33,850 nt of DNA from Lachnospiraceae bacterium. GTDB lineage: Bacteria > Bacillota > Clostridia > Lachnospirales > Lachnospiraceae. The position numbers and the translations under genes are program-made. Of the stretch, positions 18,022 to 25,985 are shown one piece after another (position 1 is the first letter of the stretch; each line of letters begins with the position of its first letter). The notes beneath the pieces are model-generated. The model saw nothing but the letters and a program-made list of their open reading frames with translations, was not told the origin of the DNA and did no database searches. The stretch is taken from contig JAFXGR010000149.1 in the NCBI GenBank assembly GCA_017520155.1, forward strand, positions 1-33,850, read 5' to 3'.

Positions 18022-18029
18022 GGTAAGTG
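18022..18029 (+). repeat. Target-site duplication, left copy (GGTAAGTG)
   Basis: GGTAAGTG directly abuts the left end of the mobile element and recurs exactly at 18174-18181 directly after its right end. Confidence 0.85.
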
Positions 18030-18173
18030 GTAACAGTTCAGCCTTCGGCTTTCTGTTACAGGCGACACCCACATTTAAAGTCGCTTACAGCGAGGCGGGT
18101 GTCGCTTTAGTTTTATTTACTCTTTCTTCCATGCCCAATCAGCAAAGTGATTGGGCATGGGGTGAACTGTTAC
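18030..18173. mobile_element. IS66-type MITE, copy 1 (upstream of recA)
   Basis: A 144-bp non-coding element. Left end GTAACAGTTCAGCC and right end ending GAACTGTTAC form terminal inverted repeats (11 bp perfect, 13 of 14). Perfect 8-bp duplications GGTAAGTG flank it. Internal hairpins: GCGACACCC/GGGTGTCGC (18062-18105) enclosing TCGCT/AGCGA, and CATGCCCAATCA/TGATTGGGCATG (18130-18159). The left 30 bases also fold alone, since GTAACAG recurs inverted at 18053-18059. Ends beginning GTAA with 8-bp duplications are characteristic of IS66-family elements, so a trans-acting IS66 transposase is inferred; none is in the window. A 62-codon frame across it is incidental. About 30 bases separate it from the recA -35 box. 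Confidence 0.85.
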
Positions 18174-18181
18174 GGTAAGTG
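18174..18181 (+). repeat. Target-site duplication, right copy (GGTAAGTG)
   Basis: Exact repeat of 18022-18029, immediately after the right terminal inverted repeat. Confidence 0.85.
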
Positions 18182-18202
18182 TTCTCAGTAGAGAAAAGAT
18201 AG

Positions 18203-18231
18203 TTGACAAAAACAAACAAGTGTTTTATATT
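18203..18231 (+). promoter_or_regulatory. recA promoter (TTGACA-17-TATATT)
   Basis: A perfect -35 TTGACA at 18203-18208 and TATATT at 18226-18231 with a 17-base spacer. The LexA box starts 14 bases after the -10, so repressor would cover the start of transcription. Confidence 0.8.
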
Positions 18232-18245
18232 ATGACTAAATAAAA

Positions 18246-18257
18246 GAACGTTTGTTC
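18246..18257. promoter_or_regulatory. LexA (SOS) box of recA
   Basis: GAACGTTTGTTC is a perfect match to the Gram-positive LexA core GAAC-N4-GTTC, placed between the recA promoter and its start codon. LexA repression relieved by RecA filaments is the expected control. Confidence 0.9.
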
Positions 18258-18298
18258 TGAACTGATATTAATACAGTTAAGTAAAAAGGAGAATGAAA

Positions 18299-19366
18299 AT
18301 GGATAGAGATGATAGATTAAAAGCACTGGATGCAGCTATTGGCCAATTGGAAAGACAGTATGGAAAAGGAACGGTAATGAAGCTGGGAGACCCTTCAGCT
18401 CAGATGCAGGTAGAGACCATCCCCACCGGTTCCCTTAGTTTAGATTTGGCTTTAGGACTGGGAGGAATCCCTAAGGGAAGAATTGTAGAGATATATGGTC
18501 CTGAGTCCAGCGGTAAGACAACCGTTACCTTACATATGATTGCAGAAGTACAAAAAAGAGGAGGAATTGCCGGCTTTATTGATGCAGAGCATGCCTTAGA
18601 TCCTATTTATGCTAAGAATATCGGAGTAGATATTGATAATTTATATATTTCTCAGCCGGACTGCGGAGAACAGGCTTTGGAGATTACAGAGACCATGGTA
18701 CGCTCAGGTGCAGTGGATATTGTGGTAGTGGACTCTGTTGCCGCCCTGGTACCTAAGGCTGAGATTGATGGGGATATGGGAGATTCTCACGTGGGTCTGC
18801 AGGCCAGATTAATGTCCCAGGCTCTTCGTAAGCTGACAGCAGTAATCAGTAAGTCAAATTGTACCGTAATCTTTATTAATCAGTTACGAGAAAAGGTAGG
18901 GGTAATGTTTGGAAATCCGGAAACCACTACCGGAGGTCGTGCATTGAAGTTTTATTCTTCCGTACGTCTTGATGTAAGAAGAATTGAATCCTTAAAGCAA
19001 AGCGGAGAGGTTGTAGGAAACAGAACCAGAGTAAAGGTAGTAAAGAATAAGATTGCTCCTCCCTTTAAGGAAGCAGAGTTTGATATTATGTTTGGAGAAG
19101 GAATTTCCCGTGTGGGAGATATTCTGGATCTGGCAGCAGAAAATAATATTGTAAATAAAAGCGGTGCTTGGTATGCCTATGATGGCAATAAAATTGGACA
19201 GGGACGGGAAAATGCAAAGAATTATTTAAAAGAAAATACACAGATTTGCGAAGAAATTGAAACCAAGGTAAGAGAGTTATTTGGTCTTACCGATGTGGTG
19301 GCAGCGGAAGAGGAGGAAAGTGCTTCTGCAAAGAAGTCCGGTAAAAGTAAGGCAGCAGAAGAATAA
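18299..19366 (+). CDS. recA: Recombinase RecA
   Basis: 355 residues from the ATG at 18299, which has AAAGGAG 8 bases upstream; an ATG six bases earlier is too close to it. Walker A is GPESSGKTT (about residues 67-75), Walker B is [12 protein letters not shown], and the DNA-binding loops follow ([19 protein letters not shown], then [26 protein letters not shown]). RecA carries out strand exchange in recombination and repair and triggers LexA self-cleavage. It has its own SOS-controlled promoter. The short tail is rich in acidic and Ala/Lys residues. recX follows after only five bases. Confidence 0.98.
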
Positions 19367-19371
19367 AGGGT

Positions 19372-20007
19372 ATGGGGATCATCACCAAAATAGAACCCTT
19401 GGATGGGAAGAGAAGTAAAGTCTTTTTGGAAGAGGAATTTGCCTTTGTTTTGTATAAAGGAGAAATTAAACAATACAAAATTAAGGAAGGGGAAGTTCTC
19501 CCCCGGGAAACTTATGAAGAGATTATGCAGGTACTTCTTCCCAAAAGAGCAAAAAAACGGGCTTTATATTTACTGCAGAAAAGGTCATATACAGAAAAGA
19601 AGCTGTGGGATAAGCTACAGGAAGGCTGGTATCCAAGAGAAAGTATTGAACAGGCCATAGAATATGCAAAATCTTATCACTATCTGGATGATTATGCTTA
19701 CGCTTTAGACTATATTTTTTACCGTAAGGAAACCTTATCCCGAAAAATAATAGAAGAAAAGCTAAGACAAAAAGGAATTTCCTCCCAGATTCTTCAACAG
19801 GTTATGGGAGAAGCTTACAGCTGCAGAGAGGAAGAAGAAGAACTTCAATTACAGCAGGCACTAAAGCTTTTGAAAAAAAGATCTTACCACGGAGAAAATG
19901 AAGATCCTAAGGAATGGCAGAAGCAATATGCATACTTAAGTAGAAAAGGAATTTCCTCCGCTGTAATAAAAAAAGCCTTATCTCTATCAGTAGAATTTTT
20001 TGAATAA
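19372..20007 (+). CDS. recX: Regulatory protein RecX
   Basis: 211 residues made of tandem three-helix RecX repeats, visible as RAKKRALYLLQKRSYTEKKLWDKL, YLDDYAYALDYIFYRKETLSRKIIEEKLRQKGIS and YAYLSRKGISSAVIKKAL. RecX binds RecA filaments and inhibits or remodels them. It starts five bases after the recA stop with AAAGGG close to the ATG, so its translation is probably coupled to recA and its expression follows the SOS response. An N-terminal beta-rich extension (ITKIEPLDGKRSKVFLEEEFAFVLYKGEI) is common in Clostridia homologues. A strong hairpin terminator follows. Confidence 0.92.
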   Translation: MGIITKIEPLDGKRSKVFLEEEFAFVLYKGEIKQYKIKEGEVLPRETYEEIMQVLLPKRAKKRALYLLQKRSYTEKKLWDKLQEGWYPRESIEQAIEYAKSYHYLDDYAYALDYIFYRKETLSRKIIEEKLRQKGISSQILQQVMGEAYSCREEEEELQLQQALKLLKKRSYHGENEDPKEWQKQYAYLSRKGISSAVIKKALSLSVEFFE

Positions 20008-20019
20008 ATAAGAAGAATG

Positions 20020-20063
20020 AAAGAGTTAAATTGTATAAATATTTATACAATTTGACTCTTTTT
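20020..20063 (+). terminator. Terminator after recX
   Basis: A nearly continuous stem of about 20 bp: AAAGAGT...AAATTGTATAAAT pairs with ATTTATACAATTT...ACTCTTT, ending in TTTTT. The stem abuts the rny promoter, separating the recA-recX and rny transcripts. Confidence 0.85.
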
Positions 20064-20067
20064 CATA

Positions 20068-20096
20068 TTGACAGTTATATTTTTTTTGTATACAAT
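20068..20096 (+). promoter_or_regulatory. rny promoter (TTGACA-17-TACAAT)
   Basis: TTGACA (20068-20073) and TACAAT (20091-20096) with a 17-base spacer, starting five bases after the recX terminator. A possible second promoter is the extended -10 TGG-TACAAT at 20161-20169. Confidence 0.78.
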
Positions 20097-20181
20097 TAGT
20101 TTGTTGTAGATTGCTAAGGTGAGCGAACAAGAGAGTATGTTCGAATCTTATTTTAGATTATGGTACAATGAAAATTAAATA

Positions 20182-20194
20182 AGGAGGTGCTCCT
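20182..20194 (+). promoter_or_regulatory. rny ribosome binding site inside a small hairpin
   Basis: AGGAG-GTG-CTCCT is a perfect 5-bp inverted repeat whose left arm is the Shine-Dalgarno sequence. The AGGAGG also fixes the start at the ATG of 20199 rather than the in-frame GTG at 20187, which lies inside it. Confidence 0.55.
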
Positions 20195-20198
20195 GTAC

Positions 20199-21743
20199 AT
20201 GATGACAGTAATCAGTGTAGTAGTAGCTCTGATCGTTGCCATACCTGTAACCATAGCGGTGACTACTTCTTATCAGAAAAAGTCAGCGGCAAGTACAATT
20301 GGAACTGCAGAAGATAAGGCAAGAGAGATTATTGATGAAGCTCTGAAAACAGCGGAAAGTAAGAAACGTGAAGGCTTACTGGAAGTGAAGGAAGAATCTA
20401 TCCGTACCAAGAATGAATTGGACAAGGAGATTAAAGAGCGTCGTGCTGAGGTTCAGCGTTATGAACGAAGAATTCAGCAAAAAGAAGAAAATATCGATAA
20501 GAAATCAGAAGCTATTGAGAAGAAAGAGGCAAGCTTAAATGCTAAGGAAGAAGAACTTTCCAAGCAAAAAGAAAAGATTGCCAGACTGAATGAAGAACGA
20601 GTACAGGAACTGGAACGAATCTCAGGATTAACCACCGAACAGGCAAAAGAATACTTATTGAAAATTGTTGAAGAAGATGTAAAACATGAAACCGCCATTC
20701 TGATTAAAGAATTAGAAACAAGGGCAAAGGAAGAATCCGATAAGAAAGCAAAGGAATACATTGTTGAAGCCATTCAAAGATGTGCCGCAGACCATGTTTC
20801 CGAAAGTACTATTTCTGTAGTACAGCTTCCTAATGATGAAATGAAGGGAAGAATTATCGGTAGAGAGGGACGTAATATCAGAACTCTGGAAACCCTGACA
20901 GGTGTGGATCTTATTATTGATGACACACCGGAAGCTGTAGTCCTTTCAGCATTCGATCCAATCAGAAGAGAAGTGGCAAGAATTGCTCTGGAAAAACTGA
21001 TTGTAGACGGTCGTATTCATCCCGCAAGAATCGAAGAGATGGTTGAGAAGGCTCAAAGAGAAGTTGAGAGCATTATCAAAGAAGAGGGAGAGGCTGCAGT
21101 ACTTGAAGTTGGTGTTCACGGAATTCATCCGGAGCTGATTAAGCTTCTTGGTAAGATGAAATTCAGAACCAGTTATGGTCAAAATGCGTTAAAACATTCC
21201 ATTGAAGTGGCTCATTTAACAGGTTTGCTGGCTGCAGAATTGGGACTGGATATTCGTATGGCAAAACGTGCAGGTTTGCTTCACGATATCGGAAAAGCAG
21301 TTGATCATGAGATGGAAGGATCCCATATTCAATTAGGGTCAGAGCTTTGTCATAAGTATAAAGAGTCTGCAATTGTTATAAATGCAGTTGAATCTCATCA
21401 TGGAGATAAAGAACCAACCCATCTTATTTCTTACCTGGTACATGCAGCAGATGCTATTTCTGCAGCTCGTCCCGGTGCAAGAAGAGAAACACTGGAAACA
21501 TATACCAGTCGTTTAAAACAATTAGAAGAAATAACAAACAATTTCAAAGGTGTAGAAAAATCTTTTGCTATTCAGGCAGGTAGAGAGGTTCGTGTAATGG
21601 TAGTTCCGGATCAGATTACAGATGCTGACATGGTATTACTGGCACGTGATATTGCAAAACAGATTGAAACTGAATTGGAATATCCCGGACAGATTAAAGT
21701 AAACATGATCAGGGAAAGTCGTGTAATCGATTATGCTAAATAG
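20199..21743 (+). CDS. rny: Ribonuclease Y
   Basis: 514 residues from the ATG at 20199. Layout: one N-terminal transmembrane helix (residues 3-24), a long charged coiled coil (about 30-200), a KH RNA-binding domain with GREGRNIR (221-228), and an HD phosphohydrolase domain with the catalytic LHDIGK pair (H362, D363). RNase Y is the membrane-anchored endonuclease that starts bulk mRNA decay in many Bacillota. Its position after recA matches B. subtilis (ymdA). It has its own promoter and a clear terminator, so it is monocistronic here. Confidence 0.97.
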
Positions 21744-21760
21744 TATTAATTAGTTGAAAT

Positions 21761-21793
21761 AAAGACCGAAAATCTTAGATTTTCGGTCTTTTT
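21761..21793 (+). terminator. Terminator after rny
   Basis: AAAGACCGAAAATC and GATTTTCGGTCTTT pair perfectly around a TTA loop, followed by a T-run. Confidence 0.92.
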
Positions 21794-21811
21794 CAATTAA
21801 GGTTAATCTGT

Positions 21812-21840
21812 TTGCCATGTATATAGCCAATTTTTATGGT
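21812..21840 (+). promoter_or_regulatory. Candidate promoter for the NUDIX gene
   Basis: TTGCCA (21812-21817) and TATGGT (21835-21840) with a 17-base spacer, just after the rny terminator. Confidence 0.4.
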
Positions 21841-21956
21841 GTAATGATGAAATGTTCAATAAAGAATTTGGAAAGGTATACACGGAAAACCATTTTGCAT
21901 TTTTAAGAATATTTATATTGCCGGGTAATTTTTTGGGAAATCTGGAGGAAAAAGGA

Positions 21957-22502
21957 ATGGAAAAATTTGAACGTTTAGAAAGAAAGATTATCGCTAAGGG
22001 AACCATTATTGATTATTGTCAGGATACTATAAAAACGCCTTCCGGTCATATTGTCACCTGGGATTTTATTGATAATAAGGGGGCATCAGCCGTAATTCCC
22101 GTGAGAGAGGATGGAAAGATTTTTATGGTACGCCAGTATCGTAATGCACTGGAACGGGAAACACTGGAAATACCGGCGGGAGGATTAAAGGATAGAAATG
22201 AGGATCCAAAAGCGGCAGCAGCAAGGGAGCTGGAGGAGGAAATAGGATATACTTCAGATTCTTTAACCTGGCTGTTGAGCCTGCGGACTACCGTAGCCTT
22301 TTGTAATGAGAAAATCGATATTTATGTTGCAGATAACTTAAAGAAAAGCAGGCAGAATTTGGATGAGGATGAGGTGATTGAAGTGGAAGCTTATTCCTTA
22401 GAAGAACTTTGCTCCATGATTTATGAAGGAAAGATTGAGGATTCCAAAACGATAGCGGCAATTATGAGTTATAAAAATTTGGTAAGCAGACAGGAAAGAT
22501 AA
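21957..22502 (+). CDS. nudF: NUDIX hydrolase, ADP-ribose pyrophosphatase type
   Basis: 181 residues from MEKFERLERK, with GGAGG 8 bases upstream; a longer in-frame start at 21852 has no such signal and an atypical N-terminus. The NUDIX box is complete, from GGLKDRNED to AAARELEEEIGY, matching G-x5-E-x7-REUxEExGU. The upstream stretch VRQYRNALERETLEIPAGG is the usual ADP-ribose pyrophosphatase context. It hydrolyses ADP-ribose to AMP and ribose 5-phosphate. In B. subtilis nudF lies next to spoIIM, and a SpoIIM-like gene follows here after about 50 bases, which supports the assignment. Confidence 0.9.
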   Translation: MEKFERLERKIIAKGTIIDYCQDTIKTPSGHIVTWDFIDNKGASAVIPVREDGKIFMVRQYRNALERETLEIPAGGLKDRNEDPKAAAARELEEEIGYTSDSLTWLLSLRTTVAFCNEKIDIYVADNLKKSRQNLDEDEVIEVEAYSLEELCSMIYEGKIEDSKTIAAIMSYKNLVSRQER

Positions 22503-22555
22503 AGAAAAAAGAAGCATATACTGTACTAAGATGGAGATGAGAGGCAGTAAATTTT

Positions 22556-23128
22556 TTGAAAAAACTTACGTTAAAAAGGGTTCCTCCCACACTATGTTTA
22601 GGGTGCATTTTTTTACTGGGATTTATTATGGGGGTTGTGTTAACTGTACAAAGAGGACAGTCAGCTTCCTTGAATGAGGAAATATTCAGCCCTGATTTTT
22701 TTTACCGGTTAAAGAATGTATCTATAGACAGTAAAGCATTAATGTTTATATCTTTATGGAAGCGTTTTTGTGTTTTCTTTCTTCTGTGGTTTATGGTAAC
22801 CTCCAGCTTTACCCCATGGTGCTATGGAGCATATGCCTGGGGAATGGGATTTTTTACAGGAAGAACAATGGAAATATTAATTCTGTACTATGGATTGACA
22901 GGAATAGGAATTTATAGTCTGCTGGTTCTTCCCCATGGTTTTTTCTATTTTCTGGGTTATAGTATTCTTTTGATTCAGGGGATGAATAGAAAGAAAGAAA
23001 GAGGGGGGTTTTTGGAAACAGAAGAAAGAAGAGAAAGGAAAAAGAAAATCCTGATGGCCATGGTTCTTCTCTTTTTTGGCTGCTTTTTAGAGGGATATTG
23101 TAATTTGTTTACTTTAATTTATTTGTAA
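22556..23128 (+). CDS. spoIIM: SpoIIM-like membrane protein
   Basis: 190 residues from a TTG codon, the first possible start after an in-frame stop; GAGG lies 11 bases upstream. Five hydrophobic segments are visible: about residues 13-31, 63-83, 88-100, 104-140 and 163-189. The overall plan, a central HG motif (LPHGFFYFLGYSILL) and the closing GCFLEGYCNLF, fit the stage II sporulation protein M family, part of the DMP machinery for engulfment. Sequence conservation is modest and the neighbourhood (nudF) carries much of the weight. If correct, it supports a spore-forming lineage. The stop codon lies inside the terminator stem. Confidence 0.62.
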   Translation: MKKLTLKRVPPTLCLGCIFLLGFIMGVVLTVQRGQSASLNEEIFSPDFFYRLKNVSIDSKALMFISLWKRFCVFFLLWFMVTSSFTPWCYGAYAWGMGFFTGRTMEILILYYGLTGIGIYSLLVLPHGFFYFLGYSILLIQGMNRKKERGGFLETEERRERKKKILMAMVLLFFGCFLEGYCNLFTLIYL

Positions 23129-23168
23129 CGATTCAAAGCCGGTCCGGCTCTGAATCGTTACTTTTTTT
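23125..23168 (+). terminator. Terminator after the spoIIM-like gene
   Basis: GTAACGATTCA (23125-23135) and TGAATCGTTAC (23151-23161) are perfect inverted copies enclosing an inner AGCCGG/CCGGCT stem, then seven T residues. It includes the stop codon. The T-run serves the plus strand only. Confidence 0.9.
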
Positions 23169-23182
23169 ATCTGTTTATGAAG

Positions 23183-24211
23183 TTAATCATATTCTGCGAT
23201 ATCATAAATTAATTTTTCGGTAGCTTCCCAGCCAAGACAAGGATCGGTAATGGATTTACCGTAAATACCTTCTCCGATTTTCTGACAGCCTTCCACCAGG
23301 TAGCTTTCGATCATAACCCCTTTTACCAGCTTATAGATATCAGAATTCAGCTTACGGTTGTGCATAACTTCTTTCGTAATACGTACCTGCTGTTCATACT
23401 GCTTGTTGGAATTGTTGTGATTTACATCGATGATACAGGCAGGATTTTTAATCTCTCTTTCTGCGTAAAGAGAAAGAAGCAGGCTTAAGTCTTCATAATG
23501 ATAGTTGGGAAGACTTCTTCCGTATTTATTTACTGCACCGCGAAGTACGGTGTGAGCCAAAGGATTACCTGTAGTTTCCACTTCCTGTCCGCGGAAGATA
23601 AAGGAATGTTTTTGCTGGGCAGCATAAACAGAGTTTAACATTACGGAGAAGTCACCACTGGTGGGATTTTTCATTCCTGCAGGAACATCAAAACCACTGA
23701 CAGTAAGACGATGCTGCTGATCCTCCACGGAACGGGCGCCAATAGCGACATAAGAGAGAATATCAGAGATATAAGGCCAGTTTTCCGGGTAAAGCATTTC
23801 ATCTGCAGCAGTTAGTCCTGATTCTGTCATACAACGAATATGCATTTTTCTCATGGCCATTAGTCCCTGAAGAAAGTCAGGTTTTTTTTCAGGATCGGGC
23901 TGAGAAACAATTCCTTTATATCCTTCTCCTGTAGTACGGGGCTTGTTAGTATAAATTCTGGGGATAAGAATTAGCTTATCTTTTACCTTTTCATTCACTT
24001 TGGATAAGCGATTAATATATTCGCAAACAGACTCCTCGTTATCAGCAGAGCAAGGTCCCACAATGACCAAAAACTTTTTGCTTTCTCCTCGGATTACCTG
24101 TGCAATTTCCCTGTCACGTTTTTCTTTTAGTAAAGCCAATTCCTCGGGGATAGGTAGATCACGTTTGATTTCCTCGGGAGTAGGCAGTGTTCTTACAACT
24201 TTAAAACTCAT
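23183..24211 (-). CDS. aroF: 3-deoxy-7-phosphoheptulonate (DAHP) synthase, class I
   Basis: 342 residues from MSFKVVRTLP; this start is set by GGAGG 5 bases upstream, and a Met four codons earlier is less likely. The AroF/G/H-type signatures are present: VIVGPCSADN (about 51-58), LIPRIYTNKPRTTGEGYKG (about 82-100) and the C-terminal DPCLGWEATE. The enzyme joins phosphoenolpyruvate and erythrose 4-phosphate, the first step of aromatic amino-acid synthesis. It is monocistronic. Its upstream region carries a 26-bp palindromic site, so transcriptional control is likely, probably by an unidentified repressor; feedback control cannot be told from sequence. Confidence 0.94.
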   Translation of the reverse strand: MSFKVVRTLPTPEEIKRDLPIPEELALLKEKRDREIAQVIRGESKKFLVIVGPCSADNEESVCEYINRLSKVNEKVKDKLILIPRIYTNKPRTTGEGYKGIVSQPDPEKKPDFLQGLMAMRKMHIRCMTESGLTAADEMLYPENWPYISDILSYVAIGARSVEDQQHRLTVSGFDVPAGMKNPTSGDFSVMLNSVYAAQQKHSFIFRGQEVETTGNPLAHTVLRGAVNKYGRSLPNYHYEDLSLLLSLYAEREIKNPACIIDVNHNNSNKQYEQQVRITKEVMHNRKLNSDIYKLVKGVMIESYLVEGCQKIGEGIYGKSITDPCLGWEATEKLIYDIAEYD

Positions 24212-24266
24212 AATAACCTCCATAGTATTCTGAACAGTTACGTTTATCTTATTTAATAAATTGATG

Positions 24267-24292
24267 CTTTAAAGTGATACATCACTTTAAAG
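24267..24292. promoter_or_regulatory. Palindromic operator candidate upstream of aroF
   Basis: CTTTAAAGTGAT and ATCACTTTAAAG are perfect 12-base inverted copies separated by AC. The right half overlaps the palindromic 12-mer CACTTTAAAGTG (24283-24294), and the left half is a near copy of it. A candidate extended -10 for aroF on the minus strand (TGA-TAAAAT) lies at 24313-24321, placing the dyad just downstream of the transcription start. Confidence 0.5.
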
Positions 24293-24358
24293 TGAAAAAG
24301 TAATATTGATATATTTTATCATATTTAAAAAAAAAGAAAAGTAGTAAAATTAAATTTT

Positions 24359-25669
24359 TTAAGATAAATATTTTCGTAAGAAAAATAAACATAAGAAGGA
24401 GGAAATAAGTTCACTAAGGATTAAGCCGTAAAGATAGCTGTTGATTCCGTAACGGGGAATCAGAAACATAACAAAAAATAAGCGAATTAAAAGCTCGGTA
24501 ACATTAATTAATAAAGTAAGAGAAGAGCGTTTTAACCCATTTAAAATACTGGAAAGTGTAGTGTGAAGATATAAAAAAGGACAAAGAAAGCTTAATCTTC
24601 TGATAAAAATACCTGCCAGCATACTGTGAAATAAAAGGTTTCCCAATAAAGGAGCAAGGAAGAAAAAGAATGAGCCGAAAATAAGTCCAAGAAAAAGACT
24701 TGTTCCTATGGTTTTATATAAGGTGGAGCGAATTTTAATTTTGTTGTTTTCCCCTGCAGCTTCAGATACGGTAGGAAGTAAAAGAACAGAAGCAGAATTG
24801 GTAAAGGTGGAGGAGAAAAAAATCAAACTTAAGGCCATTCCTGTAAAAACTCCGTAAATGCTTAACGAAGCGGAGGTAGAGTAGCCAAATTGTTTCAGGG
24901 CCTGAGGGATAGAGACAGACTCCAGACTATGAAGGATATTTACCATTACCCGGTTAAAGGTAAGGGGAATACTGAAGGTTACCATAGGCAAAATAGAAAA
25001 GTGAGCAAAGGAATGGAAAATAGAGGGTTTTTCCCATTTAAAATAAAAAAACAGCAGGGTTAAAAAGGAAGCCCCCTCTCCTATCAAGGTTCCGAAGCAG
25101 GTAAGAAGAATAGTGGGGGTAATTCCTCTAGAAAGAGAATAATAATACAATAAGATAATGCTTGTGCACCGGGTCAGCTGTTCAATGATTTGAGAAAAGG
25201 CAGGAACCACAGTTTCCTTTTTTCCGTAGTAGTAGCCGTTAAAACAGCCATGTAAAGCAGAAAGGGGGAAACTGAAAGCAAGAATTTTTAAAAGAGGGAT
25301 ACATCGTTTCTCCTGTAAAAAGGTAAGAGAAATAAATTCTGCCTGTCCATAGATTAAAATACTGTAGCCTAAAGCAAGAAGAAAACAAAAGGCAGAGCCT
25401 CCCAAAAGGTAAAAACGGCACAGGGTATGTTCTTTTTTTTGACAGGCATAGGCTACAAAACGAGAAATGGCAGTCTGCATGCCGGCAGTGGTAAGAGAAT
25501 AGCCCATCATGAGGACAGGAGTTATCAGCTGAAAGATTCCCATAGCCTCCTCGCCAAAGGCCTGAGCCACAAAAAGGCGGTAAAAAAAACCAATACCTCG
25601 ACAGAAAAGACCGGAAAAGCTAAGCAGCAGTGTTCCGAAAATAAGAGGATTTTTTTTAGGATTAATCAA
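24359..25669 (-). CDS. spoVB: SpoVB/MOP-family polysaccharide (lipid II-type) flippase
   Basis: A polytopic protein of about 436 residues with 12-14 hydrophobic helices. The N-terminal NPLIFGTLLLSFSGLFCRGIGFFYRLFVAQAFGEEAMGIFQL is typical of stage V sporulation protein B and related MurJ-superfamily flippases, which move lipid-linked precursors for cell wall or spore cortex. I prefer the TTG at 25667-25669 because AAGGTG lies 6 bases upstream. An in-frame ATG at 25696 has no ribosome binding site and would sit at the predicted transcription start (TATACT, 25700-25705). It points away from mnmA. SpoVB and other family members are hard to separate by eye. Confidence 0.83.
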   Translation of the reverse strand: MINPKKNPLIFGTLLLSFSGLFCRGIGFFYRLFVAQAFGEEAMGIFQLITPVLMMGYSLTTAGMQTAISRFVAYACQKKEHTLCRFYLLGGSAFCFLLALGYSILIYGQAEFISLTFLQEKRCIPLLKILAFSFPLSALHGCFNGYYYGKKETVVPAFSQIIEQLTRCTSIILLYYYSLSRGITPTILLTCFGTLIGEGASFLTLLFFYFKWEKPSIFHSFAHFSILPMVTFSIPLTFNRVMVNILHSLESVSIPQALKQFGYSTSASLSIYGVFTGMALSLIFFSSTFTNSASVLLLPTVSEAAGENNKIKIRSTLYKTIGTSLFLGLIFGSFFFFLAPLLGNLLFHSMLAGIFIRRLSFLCPFLYLHTTLSSILNGLKRSSLTLLINVTELLIRLFFVMFLIPRYGINSYLYGLILSELISSFLCLFFLRKYLS

Positions 25670-25719
25670 TACAGTCACCTTAAAAAATAGTGTCATAACA
25701 GTATATGTAATTGCCTTGG

Positions 25720-25748
25720 TTGACAGAACAAAGGACCGATGTTATATT
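25720..25748 (+). promoter_or_regulatory. Promoter toward mnmA (TTGACA-17-TATATT)
   Basis: TTGACA (25720-25725) and TATATT (25743-25748), 17-base spacer. Its transcript would carry a leader of about 260 bases that contains the whole second MITE. Another TTGACA at 25798-25803 lacks a strong -10 but would start transcription near the MITE edge. Confidence 0.68.
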
Positions 25749-25826
25749 GTGAATACTTTGAGAAAGGGTAAAATATCCTTTTAAAGAAGAACCATAATTG
25801 ACAATTGTTAAAACAATAGAATAAAT

Positions 25827-25834
25827 AAGTTATT
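25827..25834 (+). repeat. Target-site duplication, left copy (AAGTTATT)
   Basis: AAGTTATT abuts the left end of MITE copy 2 and recurs exactly at 25978-25985. Confidence 0.85.
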
Positions 25835-25977
25835 GTAACAGTTCAGCCTACGGCTTCCTGTTACAGGCGACACCCACATTTAAAGTTGCTTTCAGCAAGG
25901 TGCGTGTCGCTTTAATAACACTTACCTTTTCGTCCATGACCAATCAGTAAATGATTGGTCATGGGCTGAACTGTTAC
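25835..25977. mobile_element. IS66-type MITE, copy 2 (in the mnmA leader)
   Basis: A 143-bp element with the same plan as the copy at 18030. The terminal inverted repeat GTAACAGTTCAGCC is perfect over 14 bp, flanked by an 8-bp duplication AAGTTATT. Two inner stems differ from copy 1 by paired changes that keep pairing: TTGCT/AGCAA for TCGCT/AGCGA, and CATGACC/GGTCATG for CATGCCC/GGGCATG. The GCGACAC/GTGTCGC stem keeps 7 bp. No reading frame spans it. It ends 40 bases before the mnmA start, downstream of the likely promoter, so it should be transcribed as part of the mnmA leader. Confidence 0.85.
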
Positions 25978-25985
25978 AAGTTATT
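25978..25985 (+). repeat. Target-site duplication, right copy (AAGTTATT)
   Basis: Exact repeat of 25827-25834, immediately after the right end of MITE copy 2. Confidence 0.85.

Follow-up and report, generated by a model that had tools for sequence, protein, structure and literature searches.

The closest described relatives of the repeats treated here are insertion sequences (ISs) of the IS66 family, in particular its ISBst12 subgroup, and the miniature inverted-repeat transposable elements (MITEs) of bacteria. MITEAba12 (PMC6382973) is reportedly one more such MITE, short and gene-less. Our subject is a family of 143-144 bp repeats present twice in a stretch of 33,850 nucleotides from a Lachnospiraceae bacterium (GenBank assembly GCA_017520155.1, contig JAFXGR010000149.1, positions 1 to 33,850, forward strand), hereafter the window. 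These repeats are very probably gene-less MITEs with ends of the ISBst12 subgroup, moved in trans by an IS66-type transposase.

Within the ISBst12 group, ISDge4 has ends GTGACTACTCAGCA / GTAACTGCTCAGCA and an 8-bp repeat, and it was caught transposing, which the accessible text of PMC12898284 calls the first report of active transposition for the subgroup. Elements labelled ISGst1 and ISGka4 on Geobacillus plasmids share the end GTAACTATTCAGCC; the octamers beside them, AAAAGAAC and AACTCGTC, are exact, and their proteins are IS66-like by record annotation. In the accessible text of PMC8024623, unlike in the record label, ISGka4 denotes an ISLre2 element, and pHTA426, on which stretch L564 lies, is given a single IS66/ISBst12 copy (L numbers are DNA stretches and G numbers genomes, G000 being the source genome). 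The plasmid end agrees with the window end GTAACAGTTCAGCC at 12/14 letters and both have 8-bp duplications, but the two plasmid elements are 1.6 kb long with one transposase gene, whereas the window elements have no gene. Ordinary IS66 elements, whose transposase is PF03050, share the 8-bp duplication and the GTAA start but have GTAAG ends and fall in another clade. MITEPsy1, as described in the accessible part of PMC3189936, is likewise short and gene-less; its ends are inverted, its target is duplicated, and an IS whose ends are nearly identical is its presumed partner. However, its duplication is 4 nt and its candidate partner, ISPsy2, is resident. The window family differs from it in having 8-bp duplications, ISBst12-type ends, no partner in the assembly, several interiors within one kind of end, and a third, inverted copy of the end. 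None of the literature titles found, mostly judged by title, dealt with IS66-type MITEs or MITEs of Lachnospiraceae, and by title a search on the letters GTAACAGTTCA gave none on mobile elements. The accessible part of a 2024 review of prokaryotic MITEs (PMC10969869) has 0 occurrences of IS66.

Copies, ends and target duplications

Copy 1 (18030..18173, + strand) is 144 bp long and copy 2 (25835..25977, + strand) is 143 bp. Both are palindrome-rich, with GTAACAGTTCA ends, the first of two kinds of terminal inverted repeat (TIR1), around an interior that we call core A. Copy 1 is flanked by GGTAAGTG at 18022..18029 and 18174..18181, and copy 2 by AAGTTATT at 25827..25834 and 25978..25985; these duplications, to which no strand applies, are exact and differ between the loci. 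In copy 1, the left terminal inverted repeat GTAACAGTTCAGCC occupies 18030..18043 (+ strand, from the sequence and the alignment) and the right one 18163..18173 (- strand, from the sequence). The two copies, flanks included, have 86% mean column identity in the alignment. With inverted ends and at most 48 codons, neither encodes a gene.

The original prediction had the coordinates, ends and octamers of both copies right. It had also held that the loci arose by insertion rather than shared ancestry, and this is upheld by the locus-specific octamers and by an empty site in G002, the nearest relative by RecA score. G002 retains the block that lies upstream in the window as well as the recA promoter region, and at the orthologous insertion point there is no element and both flanks are kept, in a comparison between species at one locus. 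The expectation of many copies in the genome was likewise correct: the 144-mer has 36 BLAST matches in the source genome (E<=0.01), and the exact 12-base end GTAACAGTTCAG occurs 37 times, as against 0 for the reversed pattern. The source assembly amounts to 2.57 Mb in 189 contigs, one of them the window, and is 81% complete. Because several contigs (C145, C139, C125, C47, C184 and C123) end within an element copy, the copies are under-counted and the assembly is broken by them.

The source genome holds first-kind elements with core A, which include the window copies, a core B variant of 153-154 bp with GTAACAGTTCA ends around a different core, and a second kind of 154-155 bp with GTTACTTTTCACACC ends (TIR2) and a core homologous to core A. 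The flanks of these copies were tabulated, as the original prediction had proposed. With copies that are more degenerate or truncated at a contig end set aside, exact octamers flank 11/14 complete-looking first-kind copies (8 with core A, 2 with core B and 1 bare 31-bp end pair; the exceptions are L015, L031 and L014:1721-1864) and 8/8 full-length second-kind copies. The other tabulated rows are due to chance or combine an outer end with one that is inner or belongs to a neighbour. With open reading frames (ORFs) of at least 80 amino acids considered and those running off a stretch uncounted, 18/19 octamer-flanked copies lie between predicted ORFs and 1 interrupts an ORF. Five copies are 98-100% identical at unrelated sites with perfect octamers and have therefore moved recently.

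Two individual loci deserve mention. At G000:C44:20439-20734 (L002/L003), near-identical copies stand in tandem with the same octamer ATGAACTG between and around them, as if the second had entered the duplication left by the first. The 144-bp element at L014:1721-1864, without an exact octamer, has a left end, GTAACTATTCAG, equal to the Geobacillus ISGst1/ISGka4-labelled end over 12 letters.

Over all loci collected, an exact 8-bp repeat was found at 93/295 unique inward-facing first-kind end pairs (20-450 bp), and 44 more had one mismatch; control octamers taken 20 bases further out gave 0 exact and 0 one-mismatch repeats among the same 295. Second-kind end pairs gave 12/84 exact octamers (control 0), and 80 loci chosen by a pattern in one end gave octamers at 36/250 pairs (control 0). 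The duplications at the ends are not chance. The pairs are unique by sequence with 20-bp flanks, but not all are independent, as related species may contribute one locus more than once. Many loci were fetched for holding an end, so the octamer fractions are not genome-wide rates, and among the remaining pairs are old copies, chance ends and pairings across two elements. The octamer-flanked elements range from 28 to 389 bp, one 296-bp row being two tandem copies, and the octamers are 71% A+T. Three clear nested insertions (L012, L014 and L491) lie inside the end of an older superfamily member. Octamers within one mismatch of an end octamer number 5/105, one of them a double count from two tandem copies, as against 2/105 outward controls, which is suggestive of a target preference for older ends.

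The tie to the ISBst12 subgroup

The window ends read GTAAC, not the GTAAG of ordinary IS66. A letter-blind search for inverted ends with octamers returned GTNAC ends and exact octamers in 7/8 plasmid elements and nothing in the eighth (L570). An inner TTCA is present in 4/7 (L563-L566, with the ends of L563 and L566 identical), while L567, L568 and L569 read otherwise. In L565 (Chlorohelix), which has an exact octamer, the ends are GTAACAATTCAGCC on the left and GTAACAGTTCAG on the right, the latter with 12/12 letters of the window end. The likeness to the compared ISBst12-type elements stops, by eye, after about 14 bases. In a tree of 25 transposases, a 100/100 branch separates the 7 with GTNAC ends from the 5 with GTAAG ends; the other 13 rows are without determined ends, GTAAG row L557 is long-branched, and six later plasmid elements were left out. 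The five ordinary IS66 elements with resolved ends all read GTAAG, and ordinary IS66 also occurs in the source genus.

Larger elements with such ends carry IS66-type transposases. A scan for the palindromic left end described below gave at least 114 stretches, of which 80 were tabulated, the named records being almost all labelled Lachnospiraceae. Among those tabulated was L491, from Lachnospiraceae bacterium IMSAGC_002, with 2287 bp between perfect 24-bp ends GTTACAATTCAC... (GTTACAATTCACGGCCTAGCCGAT), the octamer AACGGTTC twice and exact, and a 565-aa IS66-type transposase (PF03050 at 6.6e-18). A protein search of the collected loci added one relative, L298, with left end GTTACTGTTCACACCCG. 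Two more, L543 and L544, came from weak PF03050 matches. L543 is 2308 bp long with ends GTTACTTTTCAC (GTTACTTTTCACGGGG), the letters of the source genome's second kind. L544 is 1824 bp long with ends GTAACTGTTCAGAACCCCC / GTATCTGTTCAGAACCCCC, one of them GTAACTGTTCAG, and L541, a phage-labelled, unverified faecal contig, has one end GTTACTGTTCAG. All five pass the Pfam cut-off for PF03050; against the NCBI IS66 cut-off of 180, L544 scores above (NF033517, 222.6 bits), and L491, L298, L541 and L543 fall below (102-156 bits).

The original prediction proposed an IS66 MITE mobilised in trans, taking GTAA ends with 8-bp duplications as the sign. The IS66-type ends and duplications stand, and comparison with transposase-bearing elements finds them on L491, L543, L544, L298, L541 and the ISGst1/ISGka4-labelled plasmid elements, all of IS66 type. 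The sign holds, but alone it would not separate ISBst12 from ordinary IS66, and the assignment is refined to ISBst12. Because no subgroup transposase was found in the source assembly, we only infer mobilisation in trans by a named partner, which would be a sister element outside this assembly. An IS66-type DDE transposase made elsewhere would recognise the short ends (GTNAC..TTCA) and insert the element at a staggered cut in DNA that is AT-rich and mainly intergenic. Repair of the cut would leave the 8-bp duplication; movement could be by cut-and-paste or by copying.

A number of observations weigh against this reading. Among the loci examined, no transposase-bearing element had GTAACAGTTCAG at both ends, and no ISBst12-subgroup transposase was found in the source genome, whose assembly is 81% complete. 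Its three PF03050 matches are broken pieces at two places, both matching ordinary IS66 and none of the three subgroup proteins. However, a resident subgroup transposase is not required for past mobilisation in trans. L298 is cut by a contig end and shows one end only, as does L541; L543 and L544 are without matching octamers, and one L544 end reads GTATC. PF03050 scores over the cut-off in 15/30 end-rich and 9/29 end-free genomes, with no clear link, and in none of G314 (104 end copies, 99% complete), G298, G035 and G104. The long exact end pairs examined as partner in G002, G097, G298 and G314 were all something else. Finally, the recA empty site covers one of the two loci, between species, and G002 has a related fragment (81% over 58 bp) that lies outside the conserved block, roughly 400-450 bp upstream of recA; it is at a different site from the insertion point of window copy 1.

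The long end pair search covered all matches for G000, G097, G298, G086 and G170, about 80/107 degenerate matches in G002 and about 100/104 in G314. A 1.84-kb pair on G298:C9 (L335) is two MITEs flanking a gene, and a second 1.84-kb pair there (L336) is an IS4-type PF01609 element apparently within a MITE. A 1.86-kb pair on G314:C24 (L417) holds a 613-aa ORF and no transposon. No match to five IS66-type proteins was found in L337 (G097:C7, 0.8 kb), L338 (G097:C3, 3.3 kb), L373 (G002:C101, 1.9 kb), L419 (G314:C37, 2.0 kb) or L423 (G314:C2, 5.1 kb). The left end of the long pair at G298:C39:14580-18469 has a nearer partner. Searching viral contigs with the subgroup transposases as queries, no relative was found.

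The lack of an exact partner, the absence of PF03050 from several end-rich genomes and the IS4-type gene in one long G298 pair would also be expected if the MITEs were moved by an unrelated transposase family whose ends and 8-bp duplications are similar by chance. We regard this as improbable. The IS4-type element (L336:500-2100, PF01609, 438 aa) has its own ends, TGCCATTAAGTTAAG, and is apparently inserted inside the MITE; IS256-type loci in two end-rich genomes have other ends by eye; and the end motif is found on IS66-type elements from several sources.

Scaffold, hairpins and rival readings

A selection of full-length copies, 14 first-kind and 6 second-kind core A elements from the source genome and G002, was aligned. 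One scaffold is present in all: after the outer left end, its first seven letters recur in inverted orientation, and the element terminates with the right end. In copy 1, this inner copy (18053..18059, - strand) makes the left end palindromic. All seven of its letters agree with the outer left end in 18/20 rows, and between the first and second kinds all three end copies differ together. Copy 1 also has a core hairpin at 18061..18106 (+ strand, arms about 18061-18072 and 18095-18106, with a small hairpin inside the loop) and a right hairpin CCATGCCCAATCA..TGATTGGGCATGG at 18129..18160 (+ strand, from sequence and fold). Folding of the window copies is strong for both strands (z -8.3 to -9.4); Rfam gave no match over the whole window at gathering scores.

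The consensus fold of the 20 sequences has 39 pairs with 97.3% of cells paired and 15 pairs changed on both sides, and its covariation score is 0.347, compared with 0.107 for shuffles and no more than 0.084 for slid versions. Two counts speak against kept hairpins: as many two-sided changes were reached in 33/500 shuffles and as many pair types in 257/500, so neither is exceptional. Many of the two-sided changes just separate the two kinds, and hence may represent few events. Palindrome repair templated by a hairpin would look the same as selection for structure in RNA or DNA, and either may have kept the hairpins and the inverted third copy of the end. What is unusual in the family is the inverted third end copy inside, the one core with two end types, the hairpins kept by paired changes and the 28-31 bp elements treated below.

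The same pairing, with 15/39 pairs changed on both sides, and the position of 18/19 copies between predicted ORFs fit structured extragenic repeats that spread long ago and were retained for a function in RNA, as terminator or leader, so that the octamers are relics and there is no transposition now. This seems very improbable given the five near-identical copies with perfect octamers at unrelated sites. A terminator-like pattern is found in one window copy only, hairpin-templated repair can keep palindromes too, and a role in RNA is compatible with mobility.

That the copies were moved by ordinary IS66 elements, which make the same 8-bp duplication, share the first four letters, are present in the genus and have full-length PF03050 matches without stops in G004 and G002, is hardly credible, since their ends differ from the fifth base (GTAAGCG and GTAAGTA versus GTAACAG) and their transposases lie across the 100/100 branch. 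As partner candidates, 30/59 PF03050 match rows were examined, then 20 more stretches, the source of L543 and L544. A one-mismatch copy of the 11-base end was present in 3/30 rows, outside the element's own GTAAGCG ends in L276, within the gene in L291 and 1.3 kb beyond the gene in L279.

Spread, gene context and significance

In a sample of 299 family genomes, one per genus and including the source genome, 133 have at least one exact 12-bp end. It occurs 9-183 times in 34/298 other family genomes, around differing interiors: 183 in G035, 166 in G283, 119 in G104, 107 in G244, 104 in G314, 99 in G306, 97 in G201, 88 in G097 and 85 in G068, with the reversed pattern 0 or 1 in these nine. Since matches to the 144-mer are limited to the source genome and two others of its genus (61 genomes searched), the ends are shared and the interiors are not. 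Viral contigs gave at least 120 stretches with the 14-base end pattern and, among the loci examined, a single complete element flanked by exact octamers (L208).

Exact octamers flank end pairs of 28-31 bp on C186 of the source genome (GAACAGGA) and in G170 (L415, L425), G097 (L321) and G201 (L126). L473, L505, L509 and L526 are further 28-31 bp pairs with octamers, found with a search pattern that was this palindrome itself. G097 also has near-identical 42-bp elements at several sites, with exact octamers at some only. Either the 28-31 bp units are mobile or larger elements shrank in place after insertion; the octamers fit both. It is a doubtful extension that this is a Lachnospiraceae-wide superfamily whose mobile unit is little more than an end pair, in which 28-31 bp elements would move as extruded hairpins, the third end would be active, and a core could have acquired ends for a second transposase through concerted conversion at all three end copies.

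Other variants were seen. G298 (L335, L345-L359) has fold-back elements of about 230 bp with the same 12-bp ends, whose arms vary between copies and look complementary within a copy. A second-kind element in L377 (G002:C42:15000-15500) has unlike ends, GTTACTTTTCAC / GTTACTGTTCAC, and the exact octamer ACTCAGCC. Gene-less elements of 299-389 bp with exact octamers at L449:511-809, L478:6297-6595 and L521:5793-6181 have one GTAACAGTTCAG and one GTTACAGTTCAG end.

In the window, the genes beside the two copies, starting at 18293 and 26018, are from their translations presumably recA and an mnmA-like gene. Copy 1 lies just upstream of a predicted recA promoter (18203..18231, + strand), a consensus match in a stretch conserved in relatives. 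The promoter region (18203-18260) has what we take to be LexA-type boxes; the upstream one, CAAACAAGTGTTT in the window and beside the insertion, is well kept in most relatives, e.g., CGAACAAATGTTT. In G001, G003, G004, G005 and G006, which align poorly there, no element match (BLAST, E<=0.01) was found within 1.5 kb upstream of recA. Copy 2 sits between another promoter predicted by consensus match (25720-25748) and the mnmA-like gene and, given that promoter, may lie within the leader RNA of that gene.

The family is real and recent and is well explained as IS66/ISBst12-type MITEs. What is notable is its reach, its tiny members and the coordinated difference of ends on one core. Because one window copy lies a short way upstream of recA and the other in what is presumably the leader of the mnmA-like gene, effects on expression are measurable. 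The family is a natural test of what the transposase needs: interiors vary within the same ends, in elements as small as 28-31 bp, and one interior occurs with both end types. A large, assembly-breaking set of repeats in gut Lachnospiraceae is now tied to one transposase subgroup.

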